From positions 1 to 23,373 of the IMG/VR virus record IMGVR_UViG_3300044681_000086: a DNA stretch of 23,373 bases; one strand, given 5' to 3'. This document shows positions 3,669 through 21,235 of this stretch, in pieces. A model generated the notes under the pieces. The model saw nothing but the letters and a program-made list of their open reading frames with translations, ran no database searches and was not told the origin of the DNA. This stretch comes from a virus. Every line of letters begins with the position of its first letter. Position 1 is the stretch's first letter. The position numbers were made by a program, and so were the translations under genes.

Positions 3669-5137
3669 GCTGAATCTCCAAATGAGGATAATCTATCCCT
3701 CTCGGCTTCAAGTACGTCTTGTCGTGTCTGAGCGTCCAATCCTAATGTTACCTGTTGTCCCAAATTGGCTTCGGTATTTCCAAGAGGAATCGTACCAACA
3801 AATGATGATGGATTCTGTCCAGTAGTCCTACCAATAGCAGGAGGGTTTACATTCAGAGATTGTGTGCTTATAAGTCCATCCGCCATTGCTCTGAGTTGTA
3901 GATTTTGTCTATTGTCCGAGTCTCTCATTGCACCACGCAAATCTTGAGTTGAGGGTTCACCATCATGGAAAACTCCACCATACCCTTCTGCATCTTCAAG
4001 ATTCTTTTTCAGTTTGTCTCCAGCATCAATTGTTACAGTCTTAATACCATAAGGCCCGCCTAACAAACTTGTCATAACCAACGGAGAAGGAATAGTTGGA
4101 ATTGTCGGGGGTGTTGGGAAAGGAGGAGGTGTAAAGTCCGGAATAGTAGGAGCAGCGCCACCAAGTGCGGCCGCAGAGATTGCAGTCCCAGCGGTCAATG
4201 ATGCCTTTGATACCATTGCTGATATAGACCCACCCAATACGTTACCGTAGAATGCAGCACCAGAAGCAAAGGGAACCGGCCCAGCAGGGCCCATATAAGT
4301 CTTACCAACATAGTCAACAAGTTGTCCGCCAAAAGAACCCGTCACACCAATAACAGAACAATGTATGCCTGTCATGTTGACAACCTTGGATGAAGCTGCA
4401 ACCTCATTCTTACCAGATAACATCACCGTTCCATCAGAAGATAGAGATAGTGTTCCCTCTGTGGACAACGACATACCACCTTTGGCGTTATATTGTGTAG
4501 ACCCAAGAACAGTTTCGATTCTACTTGCACCAACAACGTTTGTCTGGTTACCCTTAATGGTTCCTTCACGATTACCTGAAACTAGATCACGATAGTTCTT
4601 AGCGACCTTTTCGTTCTTATGTCCCTTGGTTCTAATGTTGTAGTTACCACCAACATCAACATTATAATTACCTTCGATGAACATGTCAACATTACCTTTG
4701 TAGGCCATCTTGGTATCACCTTCTACGATGATACGCATGTCACCCCCAACGGTTTCTAGTTTATTTGCAACCGAACTGATATAGATCGTTCCATCAGGAC
4801 GAATCTCAATACCCGCACCCGTCCTATGTTTGATCAGAATCCTTTCACCACCAGCGGTATCGTCATATTCAATTACGTGACCAGAATACGTTTCCTTTAC
4901 TTGGTTGTAAGGATACTGTGAAGGTTGTGTGTCTTTCAGTTCAAGATCAATTTCTGAAAATGTGGCAGTCACATTTAGATCATTGATTTTATCTCCACGA
5001 GCAGCCTTATTGATTGAGGATTCCCCCCAATACTGTTTGCGAGGAAATTCACCAGAGGGGTCTTGAAATCCATAAAGGGGGACTTGCTGTTGACCTTCTT
5101 CTTCACTTCTCTCTGTGATTATATTTTCTTTTGCCAT
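3665..5137 (-). CDS. Baseplate central spike protein, gp5 C-terminal beta-helix type
   Basis: The 490-aa product corresponds to the needle part of T4 gp5 and the related VgrG/gpV spikes, without the OB-fold and lysozyme. Residues about 85-270 hold short beta repeats with regular V/I-x-G-N/D spacing, for example GDTKMAYKGNVDMFIEGNYN followed by VDVGGNYNIRTKG, which would wind into the triple-stranded beta-helix. The start is polar (residues 1-60). After residue 270 comes a small-residue region with AGPVPFASGAAFYG, and a proline-rich stretch near residues 335-350 (PPPFPTPPTIPTIPSP) that may be a linker. The last 100 residues are polar. It overlaps the amidase gene by 1 nt at 5137. No metal-binding tip motif such as HxH was obvious at the C-terminus. 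A separate PAAR-type tip protein might therefore exist elsewhere; that is inference. Confidence 0.75.
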   Translation of the reverse strand: MAKENIITERSEEEGQQQVPLYGFQDPSGEFPRKQYWGESSINKAARGDKINDLNVTATFSEIDLELKDTQPSQYPYNQVKETYSGHVIEYDDTAGGERILIKHRTGAGIEIRPDGTIYISSVANKLETVGGDMRIIVEGDTKMAYKGNVDMFIEGNYNVDVGGNYNIRTKGHKNEKVAKNYRDLVSGNREGTIKGNQTNVVGASRIETVLGSTQYNAKGGMSLSTEGTLSLSSDGTVMLSGKNEVAASSKVVNMTGIHCSVIGVTGSFGGQLVDYVGKTYMGPAGPVPFASGAAFYGNVLGGSISAMVSKASLTAGTAISAAALGGAAPTIPDFTPPPFPTPPTIPTIPSPLVMTSLLGGPYGIKTVTIDAGDKLKKNLEDAEGYGGVFHDGEPSTQDLRGAMRDSDNRQNLQLRAMADGLISTQSLNVNPPAIGRTTGQNPSSFVGTIPLGNTEANLGQQVTLGLDAQTRQDVLEAERDRLSSFGDSA

Positions 5138-7038
5138 TATCTGTCAAACCTATTTTGTACATATTTCTTTACGTCAAACTGTGGGTCATCAGAACCGTTC
5201 TCAATATCACTATGACCGATAACATTCAAGCCAGGGAATCTTCTATAGAAGTTTATCAGGATAGATTCCAAGGTGTCAAATTGGGCTCTTGTATAAGATT
5301 CGATACCCTTATAGAAATCCGGATTTTCTGTACCAGCGGCCGCATTAATCCCACCAACCATAACAACATCGATAGAATAGTTTGCATAATCAACAGGAGT
5401 AACCTCCGAAACAACGTTCGAAGGAATACCTCTTTCTAATGTTCCGTCCCTACGAATTACATAGTGGAACTGCATACCGTTATATCCACGTTCAGTCAAT
5501 CTTTCATGAATATCTGCCGCAGTCAAGAACTGGTTGTTATATGAATTTGTTGAGTGAATAACAAGATGGGTGATAGAACGTTTCGTTACCATAACCTCTT
5601 GTGCAAGTTCCTCATAGGAATCACATGTTGAGAACTTCGGAATACCGCCCGGAGCTTGGTCTGTGTAGTAATTAGACCCGTAGTTCTTCAGGTTCTTATT
5701 CTGATTAAAGAAGTCGTTCTGTGAGACAAAGAGGTTACCCTGAATTGTGGTATCGAAGATAGCAACGTTGTCTTCGGTTGCAACAAAAATTTCATCAAAG
5801 TCTGCAAGAATTGCAGGATCAACTCCACGTAAAACGGCAAGATTGTTGATGTTATCTTGCAGTTGCTTGGTATTAGAATAAGATTCTACCTCAGCGATAA
5901 TAGGAAGCATATCGGGGTGAATGTTCTTGTTCTTGCTGACAATTGTTTTAACAGCATTAGCTACGTCTTTTGGTTGTCCAGTATTAAGTTGATCCATTAC
6001 CGTACCAACTTCTGCCTTAGACAATACCGCACCACCAGTAATTTGTGTGATCGATTTACCCAAAGTTGAGTTATAGTCCTCTACCTTGTTTTGTAGAGAA
6101 CCACCCTTACTTCCAGAAGATGTCAAGGCCTGTGCAACCGCCACCGCAGTGATAAGAGGTGATGCAATATCAAGAACGGTTTCGATTGTATCACCAATAC
6201 CATCAGCTACCTTATTAATACCCTTCTCGATATCAGTAATACTTTTACCAACTTCTTTAAACTTATCTTTAATTCCGGTATCTTGTGCAACAGTATCCAG
6301 AACAGTTCCTAAAGGATCATCAATTGCAGATGCAACTTTAAATACATTTGATGTTACAGCATCCATAGCTGTCCCAATTTTATCAAATTGGTTTCCTAAT
6401 TCCTTTAGACTGTTTATGCCACCAAGACCTTTAAATTCACCACCCGCAGCTTCGATTGATGCTGTGAGACCATCAACCTTTTCCGTAATTGCATTGCCTG
6501 CATTTTCTAACGCATCACCTGTCGCAGCACCAACGTTGATGTTACTTGCCAAATCAGCCAATGCACCCAGAGCGGTAATTAATCTCATGAGTCCAGCAAT
6601 AGTGTCACCAACACCACCACCAATACTATTGATGTTCGCTGATAATAAACTTAAGTCTGTACTATCAACCCAGAACTCTTGTGAGAAAACATTCCATGAC
6701 GCAGAATCAATATTAGCATTTGCAGAATCATCCAACTCTCCACCAATTGTGGCGGTAACTGTGTTTTGAATGTCTGTCGCACTTTGTCTCAAACCAAAGT
6801 CATTAGACTGTATTAATGCCTGACCAGTTGTGTTCGCTTCACCCGCATTATCCGTTCCTGTTAATGACGTAATGCCTGATATGGATTGACCCACTTGTGT
6901 GAAGTTCGTTGTGTTGTTTGCAATATTACGATCAGACACCAACCCAACAGCATTAGTAATGGTTGCGGAGTTCTGAATATTATTTCTATTATTGTCTAGA
7001 CGTAATAACTCGTTTACGCTAGTTTTAGTAACAGCCAT
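5137..7038 (-). CDS. Baseplate hub-associated protein with C-terminal N-acetylmuramoyl-L-alanine amidase domain
   Basis: 633 aa. The last ~145 residues form an amidase_2/PGRP/AmpD-type domain that cuts the bond between MurNAc and L-Ala. It has THLVIHSTNS (H495), FHYVIRRDGTLERG (H525, the usual core strand and hairpin) and VIGHSDIENGSDDPQF (H609 and D618). The expected zinc ligands are H495, H609 and D618, as in the AmpD H/H/D set. The preceding ~480 residues are low in aromatics and rich in A, I, G, N, T. They include long amphipathic helices and hydrophobic runs such as TIAGLMRLITALGALADLAS (near residue 145) and VLDIASPLITAVAVAQALTS (near residue 290), the kind of sequence seen in tape-measure or membrane-penetrating tail proteins. 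A strong SD (GGAGG) precedes the ATG. It lies between the gp5 N-terminal-type gene and the spike gene, so it probably supplies the wall-cutting activity of the tail tip. No signal peptide is seen, which fits delivery by the virion rather than export. Confidence 0.82.
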   Translation of the reverse strand: MAVTKTSVNELLRLDNNRNNIQNSATITNAVGLVSDRNIANNTTNFTQVGQSISGITSLTGTDNAGEANTTGQALIQSNDFGLRQSATDIQNTVTATIGGELDDSANANIDSASWNVFSQEFWVDSTDLSLLSANINSIGGGVGDTIAGLMRLITALGALADLASNINVGAATGDALENAGNAITEKVDGLTASIEAAGGEFKGLGGINSLKELGNQFDKIGTAMDAVTSNVFKVASAIDDPLGTVLDTVAQDTGIKDKFKEVGKSITDIEKGINKVADGIGDTIETVLDIASPLITAVAVAQALTSSGSKGGSLQNKVEDYNSTLGKSITQITGGAVLSKAEVGTVMDQLNTGQPKDVANAVKTIVSKNKNIHPDMLPIIAEVESYSNTKQLQDNINNLAVLRGVDPAILADFDEIFVATEDNVAIFDTTIQGNLFVSQNDFFNQNKNLKNYGSNYYTDQAPGGIPKFSTCDSYEELAQEVMVTKRSITHLVIHSTNSYNNQFLTAADIHERLTERGYNGMQFHYVIRRDGTLERGIPSNVVSEVTPVDYANYSIDVVMVGGINAAAGTENPDFYKGIESYTRAQFDTLESILINFYRRFPGLNVIGHSDIENGSDDPQFDVKKYVQNRFDR

Positions 7039-7040
7039 TA

Positions 7041-7892
7041 TTAACCTCCGCCCATCTGATCATGAATAGTATTCGCAGTATTTATTGCACGATTTGTTAG
7101 GGCTTCTTGATCTGCTTTTAGTACTTCAAGACTTGCAACAACCGTGTTTCCGTTACTTTTATCATTAGCGCTCAATGTTCTTGCACGGGAGAGATTACTA
7201 TTTTTGGCTTCAGAATTAACAAACTCCAGTTGATCACCAAATTCATCAAAGTTTTCTATGGAGTTTCTCAGTCTTTCCGCATCGGTCTCTTGCCAACCAC
7301 CAATGCCATATCGTTGACCATCTTGAGAATAACCCGTCACCATCCCAGAAGAGATGTCTAATGCCGCAGTCATTCCCACTGCTTGTTCTCTGCTCCAACC
7401 ATTTGCGGTAAGATATCTAATCGCTTCCGATTGTCTTGCTAATCTAGTCTCTTCACTGATTTCACCCACGTTTGAGTTTTCTACCAAATCTTCATTAACA
7501 GTTGCACGAGGATTTGTAAACGGTTCCTCAACAAAGCCGGGGTCTTGTCCTACCTGAATAGGACTTGCATATTCAAATGTAGGTAGAGAACCAAGAACGA
7601 TAGGAGTCTGCGATGACTTACCATCCATAAAGAAACCAAACACAATTGTACCAGCCTCCAGTCTAGGTGTAGCACCAAGACCTGAAGTTCCACCTTCGGT
7701 TGTCGGTATTAATACCTGTGCCCAAGGAAGGTCTGCTTGTGGAATATCTCGTGTAGACGGAGACATTGTTCCGTGTATTCTAATTTGCACACGTCCCTCT
7801 AGGTTTTCCCCTTTAGGTGGACGGGCATCAATAACGGTGGCAATAAACCATCGTACATCGTCACCATAATACTGAACGGGAATGGTCTTCAT
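7041..7892 (-). CDS. gp5 N-terminal-type OB-fold protein with tail-lysozyme-like domain
   Basis: 283 aa. Residues about 10-105 match the gp5/VgrG OB-fold that docks on the gp27 hub: VRWFIATVIDARPPKGENLE, then GRVQIRIHG, then LPWAQVLIPTTEGG and GTIVFGFFMDG with a closing VLGSLP. Residues about 153-235 resemble the phage tail lysozyme family: YLTANGWSREQAVGMTAALD (160-179), then YGIGGWQETDAERLR (195-209). In that family the first helix normally ends in an ExG/ESG-type catalytic glutamate. Here the matching place reads DISSGM (residues 179-184) with serine instead, so the domain may be inactive. The C-terminal 50 residues are helical. It follows gp27 by 4 nt. In T4 the OB-fold, lysozyme and beta-helix are one polypeptide; here they lie in separate genes. 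Confidence 0.8.
   Translation of the reverse strand: MKTIPVQYYGDDVRWFIATVIDARPPKGENLEGRVQIRIHGTMSPSTRDIPQADLPWAQVLIPTTEGGTSGLGATPRLEAGTIVFGFFMDGKSSQTPIVLGSLPTFEYASPIQVGQDPGFVEEPFTNPRATVNEDLVENSNVGEISEETRLARQSEAIRYLTANGWSREQAVGMTAALDISSGMVTGYSQDGQRYGIGGWQETDAERLRNSIENFDEFGDQLEFVNSEAKNSNLSRARTLSANDKSNGNTVVASLEVLKADQEALTNRAINTANTIHDQMGGG
7079..7086 (-). promoter_or_regulatory. Possible late promoter for the amidase gene
   Basis: AATAAATA on the minus strand, one mismatch from TATAAATA, placed so that transcription would begin about 35 nt before the amidase ATG at 7038. It lies within the end of the OB-fold gene. A single 7/8 match inside coding DNA can occur by chance, so this is tentative. Confidence 0.35.
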
Positions 7893-11444: not shown

Positions 11445-11452
11445 AATAAATA
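11445..11452 (+). promoter_or_regulatory. Probable late promoter for gp4
   Basis: AATAAATA on the plus strand, 7 of 8 positions of the T4 late octamer. Transcription would start near 11458 and give a leader of about 30 nt to the gp4 ATG at 11489, where AAGGA serves as ribosome binding site. It lies only 19 nt from the oppositely oriented late motif of gp48. Confidence 0.55.
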
Positions 11453-11488: not shown

Positions 11489-11968
11489 ATGGCGTATTCT
11501 GGAAGATACCCCGTAAAAAACAAGACTAAGTATGTTGGTGACCCCAACAGCGTAGTATATAGATCACTGTGGGAAAAACACGCTTTCAAATGGTGTGACA
11601 ACAGTTCAGACGTAAAACGCTGGGCCAGTGAAGAGGTTGTTGTTACATACTTATACGAGGCAGACAAAAGATATCATCGATATTTCGTTGATCTATGGAT
11701 AGAATATAAAGACGGTAATGTGGTCATGGTTGAGATAAAACCAGACCGTGAGACCAGACCACCTACCGGATCACGAAGGACTAAACGTATGTTGGAAGAG
11801 TCTCTCACATATGTCAAGAACCAGAACAAATGGCAAGCCGCAAACAAATACGCAAAGGAACGGGGATGGAAGTTTGAGATATGGACTGAGAAACGATTGT
11901 CCGCTATGGGTATTCTACCTAAGTCAATAAAACCATTAAAACCCTTCCCCAAAAAAATTAAGAAATGA
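11489..11968 (+). CDS. gp4: Head completion nuclease-fold protein gp4 (gp50/gp4)
   Basis: 159 aa (T4 gp4 is about 150 aa). In T4 this protein completes the DNA-filled head before the tail joins. The N-terminus MAYSGRYPVKNKTKYVGDP with VVYRSLWEKHAFKWCD is the family signature. The core has the PD-(D/E)XK/TnsA-like nuclease pattern: WASEEVVV (E48/E49), YFVDLWIEYKDG (D68) and VEIKP (E82, K84). All expected active-site residues are therefore present, which would allow nuclease activity, possibly trimming of packaged DNA ends. The tail is very basic (KPLKPFPKKIKK). It is the first plus-strand late gene. Its TGA overlaps the ATG of the sulfotransferase. Confidence 0.92.
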   Translation: MAYSGRYPVKNKTKYVGDPNSVVYRSLWEKHAFKWCDNSSDVKRWASEEVVVTYLYEADKRYHRYFVDLWIEYKDGNVVMVEIKPDRETRPPTGSRRTKRMLEESLTYVKNQNKWQAANKYAKERGWKFEIWTEKRLSAMGILPKSIKPLKPFPKKIKK

Positions 11969-12549
11969 ATAAGAAAATATTCTTCATAGGATTCAACAAG
12001 ACTGCAACCACATCCTTGCACCATCTTGTGGGAGCATCCGGATATGTTAGTGTTCACTGTCTATATCGTGTGAATGATACATCATGGTTTATAGCCAGAA
12101 AGATGAATGAAAACATAAACGAAGGTAGACCAATACTTCACGATATGGAAAATGCACATGCATATAGTGATATGTTGTATTCAAAACAAAGATCATTTAT
12201 AGAAGGCAACAAGTACTACAAAAAACTCCACGAAGAATATCCAGACTCGTACTTCATTTTACAAACAAGAAATCTTGATGACTGGTTAAGAAGTAGATTA
12301 TATCATAAAAACGGCGCATTTGTCAAGAGGTGTATGAAGTTTAACAGTTGTACTCAAGATGAATTGTTAGCAAAGTGGACATTCGAAAAGAAATCTCGTG
12401 AAAAGGCCATGAAATTCTATTTCAAAGACAACCCTAACTTCTTAGTGTTTGACATCGATAAAGACCCTATAGACAAACTCATCAATCACGTATCCCCTGA
12501 CTTTGAATTAGATAAAAGACGGTGGAGAAGATTGAATGAAACTGTATAA
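11965..12549 (+). CDS. Sulfotransferase family protein
   Basis: 194 aa. Sulfotransferases move a sulfuryl group from PAPS to a hydroxyl or amine of a sugar, lipid, small molecule or protein. The N-terminal strand-loop-helix KIFFIGFNKTATTSLHHLV (residues 4-22) is the 5'-phosphosulfate-binding P-loop (consensus GxxKTGTTSL). Residues 95-113 (SYFILQTRNLDDWLRSRLYH) match the 3'-phosphate-binding strand and helix, with R102, W107 and S110 in the expected places. Residues 160-180 (LVFDIDKDPIDKLINHVS) fit the strand before the C-terminal helix. No signal peptide or membrane segment is seen, so it should be soluble and cytoplasmic. It has no obvious SD; its ATG overlaps the gp4 stop (ATGA), so it is translated by coupling in the late message. 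It is richer in A/T and Lys than its neighbours, which suggests recent acquisition. The acceptor is unknown. Confidence 0.85.
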   Translation: MNKKIFFIGFNKTATTSLHHLVGASGYVSVHCLYRVNDTSWFIARKMNENINEGRPILHDMENAHAYSDMLYSKQRSFIEGNKYYKKLHEEYPDSYFILQTRNLDDWLRSRLYHKNGAFVKRCMKFNSCTQDELLAKWTFEKKSREKAMKFYFKDNPNFLVFDIDKDPIDKLINHVSPDFELDKRRWRRLNETV

Positions 12550-12552
12550 ATA
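12545..12552 (+). promoter_or_regulatory. T4-type late promoter overlapping the sulfotransferase stop codon
   Basis: A perfect TATAAATA on the plus strand, whose inner TAA is the sulfotransferase stop. The predicted start is near 12558, giving about 22 nt of leader, with AGAGG as ribosome binding site before the TTG start at 12581. It can drive the tube, chaperone and tape measure genes. Confidence 0.78.
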
Positions 12553-12580: not shown

Positions 12581-13183
12581 TTGGCACGAGTTGCAAACGC
12601 ACAGATTATCAATCGATTGGAACTACAGGCGTTCCGTGCTGGCATCACGCCTCGCACAAAGGAATCCCGTGAGTGGTTCATGAAGAAAGCATCGAACCTG
12701 AGAAGCATCAATCGTACCAACTTGATGCAAGAGGCGCCTCTTAAAAAGAAATCGAATAACGTGACTGGAAGAATGTATATGTTCTTCTATGACCCCAAAC
12801 ACAAAGACACCCTACCGTACTACGATGTCTTCCCTTTGGTGTTTGTTATTGGGCCTGCAAAGGACGGTTTCCTTGGATTAAATCTTCACTATCTACCTCC
12901 CCTGTTGAGAGCAAAGTTTCTGGATGCACTCATGGATATTCAGGGAAGAAATCTTACAGACAACACTAAATTAGATTTGTCCTACGAACTCTTGAAGAAA
13001 ACCTCCAAGTTAAAGTATTACAAACCCTGTCTGAAACACTATCTGAACAAACACGTTCAGAGTAAGTTCGCTGAGGTTCCTGCTCCTGAGTGGGAAATTG
13101 CAACTTTCTTACCAACCGCTGATTGGAGAAAGAGAAACAGACAGAAGGTATATAACGATTCAAGGGTTATGATAAATGGCTAG
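12581..13183 (+). CDS. Conserved T4-like phage virion/assembly protein, TTG start
   Basis: 200 aa. I chose the TTG at 12581 because AGAGG lies 8 nt before it and a late promoter lies just upstream. The next Met in frame is residue 34, past a conserved-looking MARVANAQ start. The N-terminal third is basic. The middle (about residues 62-118) is more hydrophobic: RMYMFFYDPKHKDTLPYYDV, then FPLVFVIGPAKDGFLGLNLH, then YLPPLLRAKFLDALM. A basic part follows with LKYYKPCLKHYLNKHVQSKF, and EWEIATFLPTADW near the end. I recall similar proteins in the head-completion/tail region of T4-like marine phages but cannot give a secure T4 name; the DNA end protector gp2 is a possibility by position only. It overlaps the next gene by 8 nt. 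Confidence 0.72.
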   Translation: MARVANAQIINRLELQAFRAGITPRTKESREWFMKKASNLRSINRTNLMQEAPLKKKSNNVTGRMYMFFYDPKHKDTLPYYDVFPLVFVIGPAKDGFLGLNLHYLPPLLRAKFLDALMDIQGRNLTDNTKLDLSYELLKKTSKLKYYKPCLKHYLNKHVQSKFAEVPAPEWEIATFLPTADWRKRNRQKVYNDSRVMING

Positions 13184-14802: not shown

Positions 14803-17187
14803 ATGGCAGAAGCACCATCATCAGTAGGTCTTATTAACATTATTAACCTCATGCGTGAGGAAAATAATGTTCGTAATGAATCTATCAAACAAAGTCAAGA
14901 GGGGACAGAAAAGAATACTTCTGACCTCAATAAGACTATGCGTGAGATTCTTGAAGAGATCAAGCAGGATAGACTTCAGAACGAAGAAGACCGTAGAGAA
15001 TCCAAAAAACAGGCTAAAGAAAAGGGGAAAGATTCTGTATCCCCAATGAAGGCTTTTGAGATAGATTGGCCTGCTTTCTCTTGGACTGCTATGATTGGTG
15101 GTATCATTGCTGCATTCGCTGGATTTGTCCAAGGACTTATTAACGGTTGGGTTGGAGCAATAAAAGATGTTATGAAAGCTCTTGGAAGATCGATACGCAC
15201 TCTCTTCAGAGGTATGCGAATAGCGCTACAAGATGCATTCCGAGTAATACTAAACACATTCAGAGCCCTTGGTCGTGGCTTAGAAAAAATGTTTGGTGTT
15301 AGGGGAAGACTTGCTAACATGTTTAATAGGGTTCTGAATTCAAGAATCATGAAACCTATTATGGACGGGGTGCGGGGAGTTCAAAGATTCTTCAGGGGTG
15401 TTAGTTTATTCTTCACCAATTTACGTGTTGCATTCAATTCTGGATTTAATGGTCTTACTAAACTACAAGTAAGTTTACGTCAATTAAATGGACGTTTTAA
15501 AGGGTGGAACGCATTTGACAAAATTGCGAGAGGAATAGGTAAAGCAGCAAGAGTTATTAAATCTGCTGTAGATGGAGTTTCATTCTTCTTTTTTGCAGTT
15601 AGATACTATGCGACTATTGGATTCGATAAACTCCGGTCTATTGGAAGAATGTTGCTTCAGGGAACACGAGTTCTCCGTGGACTAGATGCTGGAGTTGATT
15701 TGGGCCGTGTCGGTTCTGGTATAGGAAGGGCATTTCGTGTCGTTAAATCGGTTTTCGGTACAGCATTTAGTGCCGTAAAAGCAATATTAAGTCCTATCAC
15801 AAGCGTAATATCGAATATCTTCGGGAAAGCGGGTGTGTTAGGAAAATTCTTTGGTTCAATCTTTAGAATCTTCCGTGTCTTTGGTAGGTTCATTGCATGG
15901 CCTATTACAGTTATCATGGGCATCTATGATGGTATCATGGGGTTCATTGATGGTTGGCAATCACGTGAAGGTGAAGGGATATTCAATCAAATTATTGGTG
16001 GTATCTCCGGCGCTCTTGGTGGTATCTTATCAGGACTAGTCGGTGTACCTCTTGACCTTCTGAAAGACTTGGTTAGTTGGATTGCCAGTAAACTTGGATT
16101 TGAAAACTTTTCTGAGTGGTTAGACTCATTCAGCTTTGCTGATATGATATCGGACATGTTCAATGCCCTTGGTCAGATGTGGATTGATATTAAGGATTGG
16201 GTTGTCGGTCTGTTCGATGCAGAAGACCCCGTTGGTTATATCATTGATGGACTCACAGGACTTCTTGATAAGGTCACCGGATTTTTTAGTGACATGTGGG
16301 AAGGTTTAACCAGTTTCCTAAGTCGTGCATGGAGAGGAAGACCTACATGGTTGGGTGGTGATGGAACATTTAGTTTGTCTGGTGGTTCTTCGTCTTCTCC
16401 TGCATCTAGAACAAGAAATGATGCTATTGGTGATGACACTCCTCCCCCAAGAGATACGAGTTATAGAACTCAAACCCGAACCAGAACGAGATCGGCTGGA
16501 AGTGGTTCAAGTGGTTCAGCTGCAGCTGATAATTTAAATTTTGATATAACTCCTACAGGAGATAGGGACGCTGACGTAGAAAAAATCCTATCAACTATAA
16601 GACTAAGAGAGTCGGGTGGAGATTATACTGTTGGTCAAAATGCTGGGGCCTCATCAGCTTCTGGTGCTTATCAATTTCTTGATGGTACATGGCAGACTCT
16701 TACTAGAAACATGGGTATTGGTCAACAGTATACTAGGGCAAAGTTCGCTCCTCCAGAAATTCAAGATGAAGTCGCTCGTAGATATGTACAGGACATCTTG
16801 CGTAGGAGTGGCGGTGACATTAGAGCGGTTCCGAATGAATGGTATACCGGCAACATAGAAGGTAGAATGACCGAAAGACAGTTAGCTGCAAACAACGGTC
16901 TTACTTCTGCACAGTATACTAATCGTTGGTTAAATGATTATAACGGCGGAGTTGGTGCGCCTAGTTCTAGTTCTAGAACAAATGCAGGAACTATGCTTGC
17001 ACAGTTTGGTAATGGTAATGCTGGGAATGGTGGAAACGCATTTGCATCGTTTAACTTCGGAGGTAACAGCAATACTAGTGTTTCGAATACAACAAACACT
17101 CAATCGACTATTGCGCCTGTGTTTGATGTTGATGCAGCGTTTGGGCCGTTTGCAACATCCGCTAACGCACTGTTTGGTGCAGCATAA
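14803..17187 (+). CDS. Tail tape measure protein with C-terminal lytic transglycosylase domain
   Basis: 794 aa, longer than T4 gp29 (590 aa), the protein whose length fixes tail length. Residues 1-75 are highly charged and coiled-coil-like. Residues about 85-120 hold a hydrophobic segment (WTAMIGGIIAAFAGFVQGLI). Residues 120-420 are basic/aromatic amphipathic repeats (FRVVKSVFGTAFSAVKAIL and similar), with more hydrophobic stretches at about 370-430, typical for the part that reaches the membrane. Residues 525-580 are a Ser/Gly/Thr/Arg linker (RTQTRTRTRS). Residues about 595-715 look like a transglycosylase of the Rpf/SLT type: LRESGGDY with the expected catalytic E603, GASSASGAYQFLDGTW, then ARRYVQDILRRSGGD. 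The last 70 residues are Gly/Asn/Ser-rich. The start is 5 nt after the frameshift-extension stop with only a weak SD (AAAAGA), so coupled translation is probable. Confidence 0.85.
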   Translation: MAEAPSSVGLINIINLMREENNVRNESIKQSQEGTEKNTSDLNKTMREILEEIKQDRLQNEEDRRESKKQAKEKGKDSVSPMKAFEIDWPAFSWTAMIGGIIAAFAGFVQGLINGWVGAIKDVMKALGRSIRTLFRGMRIALQDAFRVILNTFRALGRGLEKMFGVRGRLANMFNRVLNSRIMKPIMDGVRGVQRFFRGVSLFFTNLRVAFNSGFNGLTKLQVSLRQLNGRFKGWNAFDKIARGIGKAARVIKSAVDGVSFFFFAVRYYATIGFDKLRSIGRMLLQGTRVLRGLDAGVDLGRVGSGIGRAFRVVKSVFGTAFSAVKAILSPITSVISNIFGKAGVLGKFFGSIFRIFRVFGRFIAWPITVIMGIYDGIMGFIDGWQSREGEGIFNQIIGGISGALGGILSGLVGVPLDLLKDLVSWIASKLGFENFSEWLDSFSFADMISDMFNALGQMWIDIKDWVVGLFDAEDPVGYIIDGLTGLLDKVTGFFSDMWEGLTSFLSRAWRGRPTWLGGDGTFSLSGGSSSSPASRTRNDAIGDDTPPPRDTSYRTQTRTRTRSAGSGSSGSAAADNLNFDITPTGDRDADVEKILSTIRLRESGGDYTVGQNAGASSASGAYQFLDGTWQTLTRNMGIGQQYTRAKFAPPEIQDEVARRYVQDILRRSGGDIRAVPNEWYTGNIEGRMTERQLAANNGLTSAQYTNRWLNDYNGGVGAPSSSSRTNAGTMLAQFGNGNAGNGGNAFASFNFGGNSNTSVSNTTNTQSTIAPVFDVDAAFGPFATSANALFGAA

Positions 17188-18243: not shown

Positions 18244-18807
18244 TTAAACCCATGTGACGTACACTTCTCTGTATCCTTGTGTGACAAGTGTACACTCATG
18301 GATCATTCCAGCGGGGAAAGAAATCGTTTCCCCAATATCCAGATCATGGTATGAATAACCATTCTCCGAATCCCTTAGAACCAGAATACCTCCTTCAAGG
18401 TCTTCTGATTTGTCCACCATCGTAACAATGGTGTATGTTCTATCTAGGTATCTGCCGTCCATATCGACAACAGACCCATCGTAAGTATCCTTGTGGGGTA
18501 CGAGGAAGTCTCCTACATCATACCTTAGATAGTTACAATCAACAATCTTACCGCCAAACTCTTTCTCAATAACCTCATTGATTTCTTCAAACCATTCAAA
18601 GAGGACTACCTTATTCTTACCGCTTCGGCCCTTTCGGGTTCCCTTGAATTGACTATAACGATTCTTGGTCTCTTGAGGAAAACTAAACTTGTGCAGATAA
18701 CTTGCCTGACAAGAGGCATCTTCAATATGAGAATCCACCCAAGGAGCTGGAAAGGTTCTCAGTTCCTCAATTTGTTCTTCAGACAGAAGTCTCCTGATAC
18801 TATACAT
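18244..18807 (-). CDS. 2-oxoglutarate/Fe(II)-dependent dioxygenase (prolyl 4-hydroxylase-like)
   Basis: 187 aa. The family uses Fe(II), O2 and 2-oxoglutarate to hydroxylate or demethylate a substrate. The expected ligands are seen: LRYDVGDFLVPHKDTYDG with H105 and D107, IGETISFPAGMIHECTLV with H170, and R180 (QGYREVYVTWV) for the 2-oxoglutarate carboxylate. The double-stranded beta-helix strands are recognisable (TYTIVTMVDKSEDLEGGILV). No signal peptide is present. Such enzymes are frequent in T4-like marine phages; substrates are largely unknown, with phage or host proteins and modified nucleobases as options. It overlaps the gp33 3' end by 8 nt and so is translated in the early message. It takes the place between gp33 and gp32 where T4 has gene 59 (helicase loader). 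Confidence 0.88.
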   Translation of the reverse strand: MYSIRRLLSEEQIEELRTFPAPWVDSHIEDASCQASYLHKFSFPQETKNRYSQFKGTRKGRSGKNKVVLFEWFEEINEVIEKEFGGKIVDCNYLRYDVGDFLVPHKDTYDGSVVDMDGRYLDRTYTIVTMVDKSEDLEGGILVLRDSENGYSYHDLDIGETISFPAGMIHECTLVTQGYREVYVTWV

Positions 18808-20719: not shown

Positions 20720-21235
20720 TTAATCTGTCAAGAACCAATTTGGAATTTTTCGTTTCGTCCACTTCATATCAAAACGAGACTGTTTCGTCTTGTAGAAGTT
20801 CCGGTAGGACGCCACCGGATCACCTTCGACAATGCACTCAGGTTGTGTCTTGAATGCAAGTTTGAATGGGGTATACCCTCCCTTGGGAATGTTCACAGGC
20901 GCACGTGCGAGGCGCTTACCGAACTTCTCCCATGACTTGTGTACCTTACCATACCGATACGTGTACTCCTTGCAGAGTTCCATCCAGTGACGGTAGTGCC
21001 ATTGGTAGTTCGAATCTGACTCCATAGTCCACAGAGTCGAAGGGTGTTTGGGGTGTGCAATCTTATAGAGGTCTTCGTTACCACCATCAAGAACACGATG
21101 GACAGTACACAACATCTGAGCTGACTCAAGGGGCATCTTCACCACGTGCTTGTCACACTGCGAACGTGCAGAGTCTATCGCATCAGGAAACTTGAACCCC
21201 CGTTTCTCATCGTACTCAATACCAAATATATTCAC
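20720..21235 (-). CDS. Conserved phage protein, possibly of the pyrimidine-dimer glycosylase-like group
   Basis: 171 aa from a GTG at 21235 that shares GTGA with the stop of the small gene before it, so translation is coupled. Characteristic segments are QCDKHVVKMPLESAQMLCTV with HRVLDGG, then KHPSTLWTMESDSNYQWHYR with HWMELCKEYTYRYGKVHKSW, and a C-terminal RNFYKTKQSRFDMKWTKR. This His/Trp/Tyr-rich pattern is widespread in phages and sometimes annotated by loose similarity to T4 DenV-type enzymes (DNA repair glycosylase). I could not confirm catalytic residues, so the function is open. The early location fits a nucleic-acid role. Confidence 0.8.
   Translation of the reverse strand: MNIFGIEYDEKRGFKFPDAIDSARSQCDKHVVKMPLESAQMLCTVHRVLDGGNEDLYKIAHPKHPSTLWTMESDSNYQWHYRHWMELCKEYTYRYGKVHKSWEKFGKRLARAPVNIPKGGYTPFKLAFKTQPECIVEGDPVASYRNFYKTKQSRFDMKWTKRKIPNWFLTD

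Follow-up and report, generated by a model that had tools for sequence, protein, structure and literature searches.

A sulfotransferase gene in an exchangeable slot between gp4 and gp2 of T4-like phages

Why does a sulfotransferase-like gene stand between a head completion gene and a DNA end protector gene in a T4-like phage, and what would its product sulfate? The window analyzed here is a 23,373-base IMG/VR record of a marine T4-like myovirus, in which gp4, gp2, tail tube, baseplate, and gp32 were assigned by profile. On the forward strand, gp4 (head closure or head completion protein, 11489-11968; phrog_218, E = 2.2e-52) forms the left edge of the slot and gp2 (DNA end protector, 12581-13183; phrog_429, E = 1.7e-53) forms the right edge. 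The cargo gene between them, hereafter ST, lies on the same strand at 11965-12549, starts with ATG, encodes 194 aa, and ends with a stop codon at 12547-12549. It had been read as a sulfotransferase in an earlier note on this DNA, and we confirmed it as a real open reading frame.

Several other genes of the window were observed. Two tail genes on the reverse strand encode a 633-aa protein with Amidase_2 at its end (5137-7038) and a 283-aa protein with Gp5 OB and Phage_lysozyme2 (7041-7892); by their predicted content, these are two further cell-wall-degrading domains. The tape-measure protein (14803-17187) was 49% identical to that of the near-identical relative L001 (L001:3655-6030), whereas neighboring proteins were 90-99% identical; its muralytic domain was transglycosylase-like in the window (weak match) and Phage_lysozyme2 (PF18013) in L001, which points to exchange of a domain within this protein. 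Also on the reverse strand, a 2OG-Fe(II) oxygenase (PF13640, just above the cut-off; 18244-18807) adjoins gp32, and the gene at 20720-21235 matched pyrimidine dimer DNA glycosylase (PF03013) weakly, below the cut-off, and is a possible DNA-repair gene.

ST matched Pfam PF17784 (Sulfotransfer_4) with E = 2.4e-9 and 37.8 bits (cut-off 22.8) over residues 4-114. The AlphaFold2 model, based on ten relatives, had a pLDDT of 88.4. Its best structural matches in VIA were SgdX2 (8y9p, Z 14.7) and Cpz8 (9kf2, Z 14.3), over 169 residues, and the other matches were schistosome SULT (Z approximately 13), tyrosylprotein sulfotransferases (Z 11-11.7), and unrelated kinases (Z 10.4 or less). The structure prediction, which without a sulfotransferase fold would have refuted the reading of the earlier note, thus returned such a fold. 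A single-protein sequence search of the PDB with ST gave chance matches only. The P-loop GFNKTATTSL (residues 9-18; 11989-12018, forward strand), which by motif would bind the 5′-phosphosulfate, and the 3′-phosphate segment from R102 (12268-12270) to S110 (12292-12294; whole segment 12268-12294, forward strand) had been described as intact; all were present, numbered correctly, and also intact in a relative with 86% identity. Among intact ST members, N11 and T15 of the P-loop were invariant, R102 and S110 were conserved in 100%, and D69 (12169-12171, forward strand) was conserved in 97%. By eye, the D69 motif looks like TTD-LP of SmSULT, whereas MAFFT placed D69 and Asp91 of SmSULT in different columns. 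Asp91 lies where it can form a hydrogen bond with the drug's accepting hydroxyl (PMC4618941), and by the visual motif match D69 would be its equivalent and a good candidate catalytic base.

SgdX2, Cpz8, and SmSULT (4mua) have the P-loop and the 3′-phosphate Arg/Ser in common with ST and match it across the full chain in their P-loop NTPase-like sulfotransferase fold (VIA Z 13-14.7), whereas ST is approximately 15% identical to them, is shorter, and matches Pfam in its N-terminal half only. Compared with these solved Sulfotransfer_4 relatives, it is also phage-encoded. By profile, predicted fold, and motifs, ST is a PAPS-dependent sulfotransferase of the Sulfotransfer_4 type.

As the earlier note had stated, ST is joined to gp4 by an ATGA stop-start overlap of 4 nt (11965-11968, forward strand): ST starts at 11965 and gp4 ends at 11968. 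The same 4-nt overlap with the gp4 stop (ATGA or GTGA) was found in 23/23 ST loci checked and in 6/9 loci checked with other cargo. An exact TATAAATA late promoter of gp2 lies over the ST stop codon (12545-12552, forward strand). This match is weak by itself because the window contains 3 exact matches against 0.98 expected. The case for a promoter is strong because TATAAATA recurs directly 5′ of gp2 in 20/21 ST-bearing representatives, as compared with 0.8% of random 60-nt stretches. It was also found there in 13/16 empty junctions and 8/10 junctions with other cargo; therefore, being kept whether the junction is empty, holds ST, or holds other cargo, the promoter is a constant component of gp2. 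The perfect late promoter for the next gene that had been noted over the ST stop is this constant element. Arrival of a late promoter with the cargo was ruled out, since empty junctions carry the promoter too. Upstream, AATAAATA (11445-11452, forward strand), with one mismatch to TATAAATA, lies 44 nt 5′ of the gp4 ATG and is the probable gp4 late promoter. Most relatives have an xATAAATA-type element at -33 to -48 of gp4. We infer that AATAAATA functions as a gp4 promoter, which would drive both gp4 and ST. The anatomy of promoters and overlap supports the late expression with virion genes proposed before, and the timing would follow from this anatomy.

The junction was compared among relatives (the best 80 of 270 matches in a gp4 search), and an ST profile search gave 48 relatives, such ST scans favoring members that carry the searched motifs. 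This comparison, suggested in the earlier note, revealed that ST was present, replaced, or absent. In about 35 loci of IMG/VR, counted as records that include some near-copies, ST occupied the gp4|gp2 junction at identities between 86% and 27%, and nearly all viral ST homologues with readable T4-like flanks were located exactly between gp4 and gp2. The single alternative occupants were a GT25 or GT25-like protein, an FkbM methyltransferase, a radical SAM protein with a B12-binding-like domain, and an A-type Fe-S carrier. A further occupant, found in L029-L037 (e.g., L032:968-1687), had 203-239 aa, contained MKVAMCFSGLPRG, gave no Pfam match, and looks like a putative glycosyltransferase. The radical SAM/B12-binding-like protein (564-577 aa; L048, L049, L059, L062, and L075) was ATGA-coupled to gp4 where checked. 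The junction was empty in approximately 70 of 80 loci around the L113-type gp4 and likewise in Phage C48C1. It also lacked ST in L004, the nearest ST-less sister of the window (gp4 83% identical), and no other Sulfotransfer_4 gene was found in records of the L004 type. Because the promoter is constant whatever the occupant, the junction is a one-gene socket that would be read from the gp4 late promoter, and on sequence grounds the cargo is inserted between the gp4 stop and the gp2 promoter.

Four phages had an ST homologue outside the slot, beside uvsY or near nrdA. A virion-structural placement of the L089, L102, and L106 homologues, proposed from ORF sizes, was rejected: the neighbors in L089 and L102 were SSB/UvsX/UvsY and methyltransferases, and L106 was assigned to the same nonstructural setting by its matching layout. 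A tblastn search with three ST family members gave no match in 50,697 isolate phage records. A stretch of a Methylophilales phage used for comparison lacked the gp4 region.

The leading reading of ST function, to which we assign a probability of about 0.5, is that the product of the window gene adds sulfate to a surface glycan of the host envelope late in infection, with host PAPS as donor; sulfation of the virion, sulfation of a metabolite, and a noncatalytic role follow. Under the leading reading, ST has no promoter of its own, would be transcribed late from the gp4 promoter, and would be translated through stop-start coupling to gp4, while gp2 expression would be undisturbed whatever occupies the slot. 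No APS kinase was found above the cut-off in ten related phage records, which may be incomplete, and so PAPS would be supplied by the host. The acceptor would most likely be a hydroxyl group on a carbohydrate of the surface, sulfated late in infection, both catalysis and acceptor being putative. Our best guess for the benefit is that an altered envelope glycan or receptor would reduce superinfection and re-adsorption to debris. In one report, pelagimyophage glycosyltransferases are suggested to modify the O-chain of the host as a defense against co-infection (PMC7029224).

The link to glycans comes from the neighbors of homologues and from the rival cargoes. In Vibrio pacinii, the homologue carries a fused GT92 domain, with a GT2 and another sulfotransferase next to it; the homologue of a Solemya symbiont adjoins a formyltransferase and a polysaccharide deacetylase, a 289-kb virus has five glycosyltransferase-type genes just upstream of its homologue, and two further phages encode FkbM methyltransferases next to theirs. 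Several Rhodobacterales homologues stand alone beside sdhB, outside glycan loci, and are not informative on substrate. A GT2 search of the related records yielded nothing above the cut-off. The radical SAM and Fe-S carrier cargoes are not glycan enzymes; thus, the slot does not dictate function.

A glycan target is favored over a virion protein. Sulfation of the virion itself, on a tyrosine of a head or tail protein or on a glycan carried by one, timed with assembly, would suit the late cotranscription and coupling with gp4, the location held in deeply diverged phages, and the tyrosylprotein sulfotransferases among the fold matches. However, the closest folds are small-molecule sulfotransferases, the enzymes that fill the slot elsewhere are general ones, and relatives whose slot is empty form virions in the absence of ST. 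In the four phages with a homologue outside the slot, the gene is not part of a structural operon. We regard this alternative as unlikely.

ST would be a classical auxiliary metabolic gene if its product sulfated a small metabolite or a lipid of the host, for instance as a means of detoxification or diversion. SgdX2, Cpz8, and SmSULT act on small molecules, and the radical SAM and Fe-S carrier proteins are metabolic cargo of the same slot, but several homologues neighbor glycan enzymes and late timing suits the envelope or virion better than metabolic support. We therefore consider a metabolite target doubtful.

A distant lineage bears on whether catalysis is selected at all. L113-L120, L122, and L123 carry the same gene in the same slot with the P-loop changed to GMDHSANQPL or GMDNSSDQPL, in which N11 and T15 are lost. 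R102 is replaced by V, D69 by E or N, H31 by S, and S110 by N (the L113 type excepted), and H114 has no counterpart in the alignment. Positions conserved in at least 80% of intact members were retained in 26/88 cells at the site and in 120/176 elsewhere. The frame was 192 aa in every copy and dN/dS was mostly 0.11-0.28, as under purifying selection, whereas an open frame survived in 1.25% of simulations with an equal number of random changes. L118 gave no PF17784 match and L113 scored 21.4 bits, below the cut-off of 22.8; the nearest intact relative, L110, was 42% identical over nearly the full length. The L118 model (pLDDT 82) matched sulfotransferases best in VIA (Z 11.5 to SgdX2), whereas Foldseek alone ranked kinases alongside. 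No second PF17784 gene was found in the 145-kb record of this lineage. Loss of P-loop residues in close relatives, named in the earlier note as evidence against its reading, was not observed, but such loss is present in this distant same-slot lineage.

The lineage probably encodes a pseudoenzyme, although residue loss is no proof of lost activity. Because a whole lineage keeps the gene without a PAPS site, catalysis is not always selected. A noncatalytic role in which the protein binds a glycan, a nucleotide, or a protein of the phage, and which either predates or outlives sulfotransfer, would account for the kept frame, core, and predicted fold of a lineage that has lost its site residues and has no second copy in its 145-kb record. 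Yet this is one lineage only, represented mostly by fragments. The residues are retained in the window, in L110, and in the remaining junction members that were inspected, and the window copy may still be catalytic. As an account of ST, such a role is less probable still than a virion or metabolite target. Tentatively, and with low probability, we also propose a broader description: a socket protein with a sulfotransferase fold, derived in place from an active enzyme, that in some lineages is noncatalytic in a selected role, such as glycan or virion binding, and is made with the neck proteins.

The earlier note had regarded ST as recently gained cargo because of an A/T-rich and Lys-rich composition. 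The low GC content stood (34.9% in ST vs. 41-43% in flanking genes, 6-8 points lower in the window, with a smaller gap in most relatives), whereas a Lys excess did not (10% in ST, equal to 10% in gp2 and below 14% in gp4). Recent gain was not supported by the data: ST is old and bound to the junction in deeply diverged phages, with the overlap in every ST locus checked, and ST distances correlated with gp4/gp2/gp26 distances (r = 0.82; 0.73 after thinning near-copies). On the gp4+gp2+gp26 tree, the ST state required 6 changes. L004, the sister that lacks ST, branches from within the carriers, and loss is therefore at least as likely as gain. In the ST tree, genes of Thiocapsa, Rhodobacterales, and other phages were near the junction members. 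One strict clade of junction members was set aside, as the best tree splits them into two groups, although a single clade was not rejected (AU, P = 0.16). These data fit an old entry followed by descent, losses, and some exchange. Between the window and L001, dN/dS was 0.094 for ST and 0.082 for gp19; by this estimate, ST is under purifying selection. Chance or decaying cargo without function, which GC content below that of the neighbors and fast protein evolution might suggest, is contradicted by this purifying selection, with frame and motifs intact across many loci, and is very improbable. Synonymous divergence between L118 and L120 rose from 4% (0.04) in ST to 20% (0.20) in gp4 and 47% (0.47) in gp2, and this jump along gp4-ST-gp2 suggests recombination whose breakpoints lie around the slot.

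Phage sulfotransferases are known as auxiliary genes in OM43 phages and glacier viruses, likewise marine or aquatic, and their role is called unclear (PMC10580990, PMC8290583). The OM43 phage genes are Sulfotransfer_3, whereas ST is Sulfotransfer_4, and neither a fixed junction nor late-operon coupling is described in the accessible text of those reports. The accessible parts of other reports place hot spots of auxiliary metabolic genes in T4-like cyanophages and pelagimyophages near gp5, gp46-gp25, gp16-gp17, psbA, and gp23, and in a VrlC-gp14 island (PMC3037559, PMC8115048, PMC7029224). Like gp4|gp2, these are fixed places that gain and lose single or grouped host-type genes; the gp4|gp2 junction, however, is not among the hot spots named there, and its cargo is a single gene fitted in between a stop codon and a promoter. 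We found no description of a gp4|gp2 socket or a phage pseudo-sulfotransferase in the open-licence literature.

A late socket at a fixed place, with cargo that can be exchanged, is a natural experiment, in which the same phage backbone carries a sulfotransferase, a glycosyltransferase, a methyltransferase, or nothing, and the lineage with the decayed site separates binding from catalysis. Together, the socket and this lineage allow the question of what phage sulfotransferases do to be addressed with simple biochemistry and a comparison of isolates.
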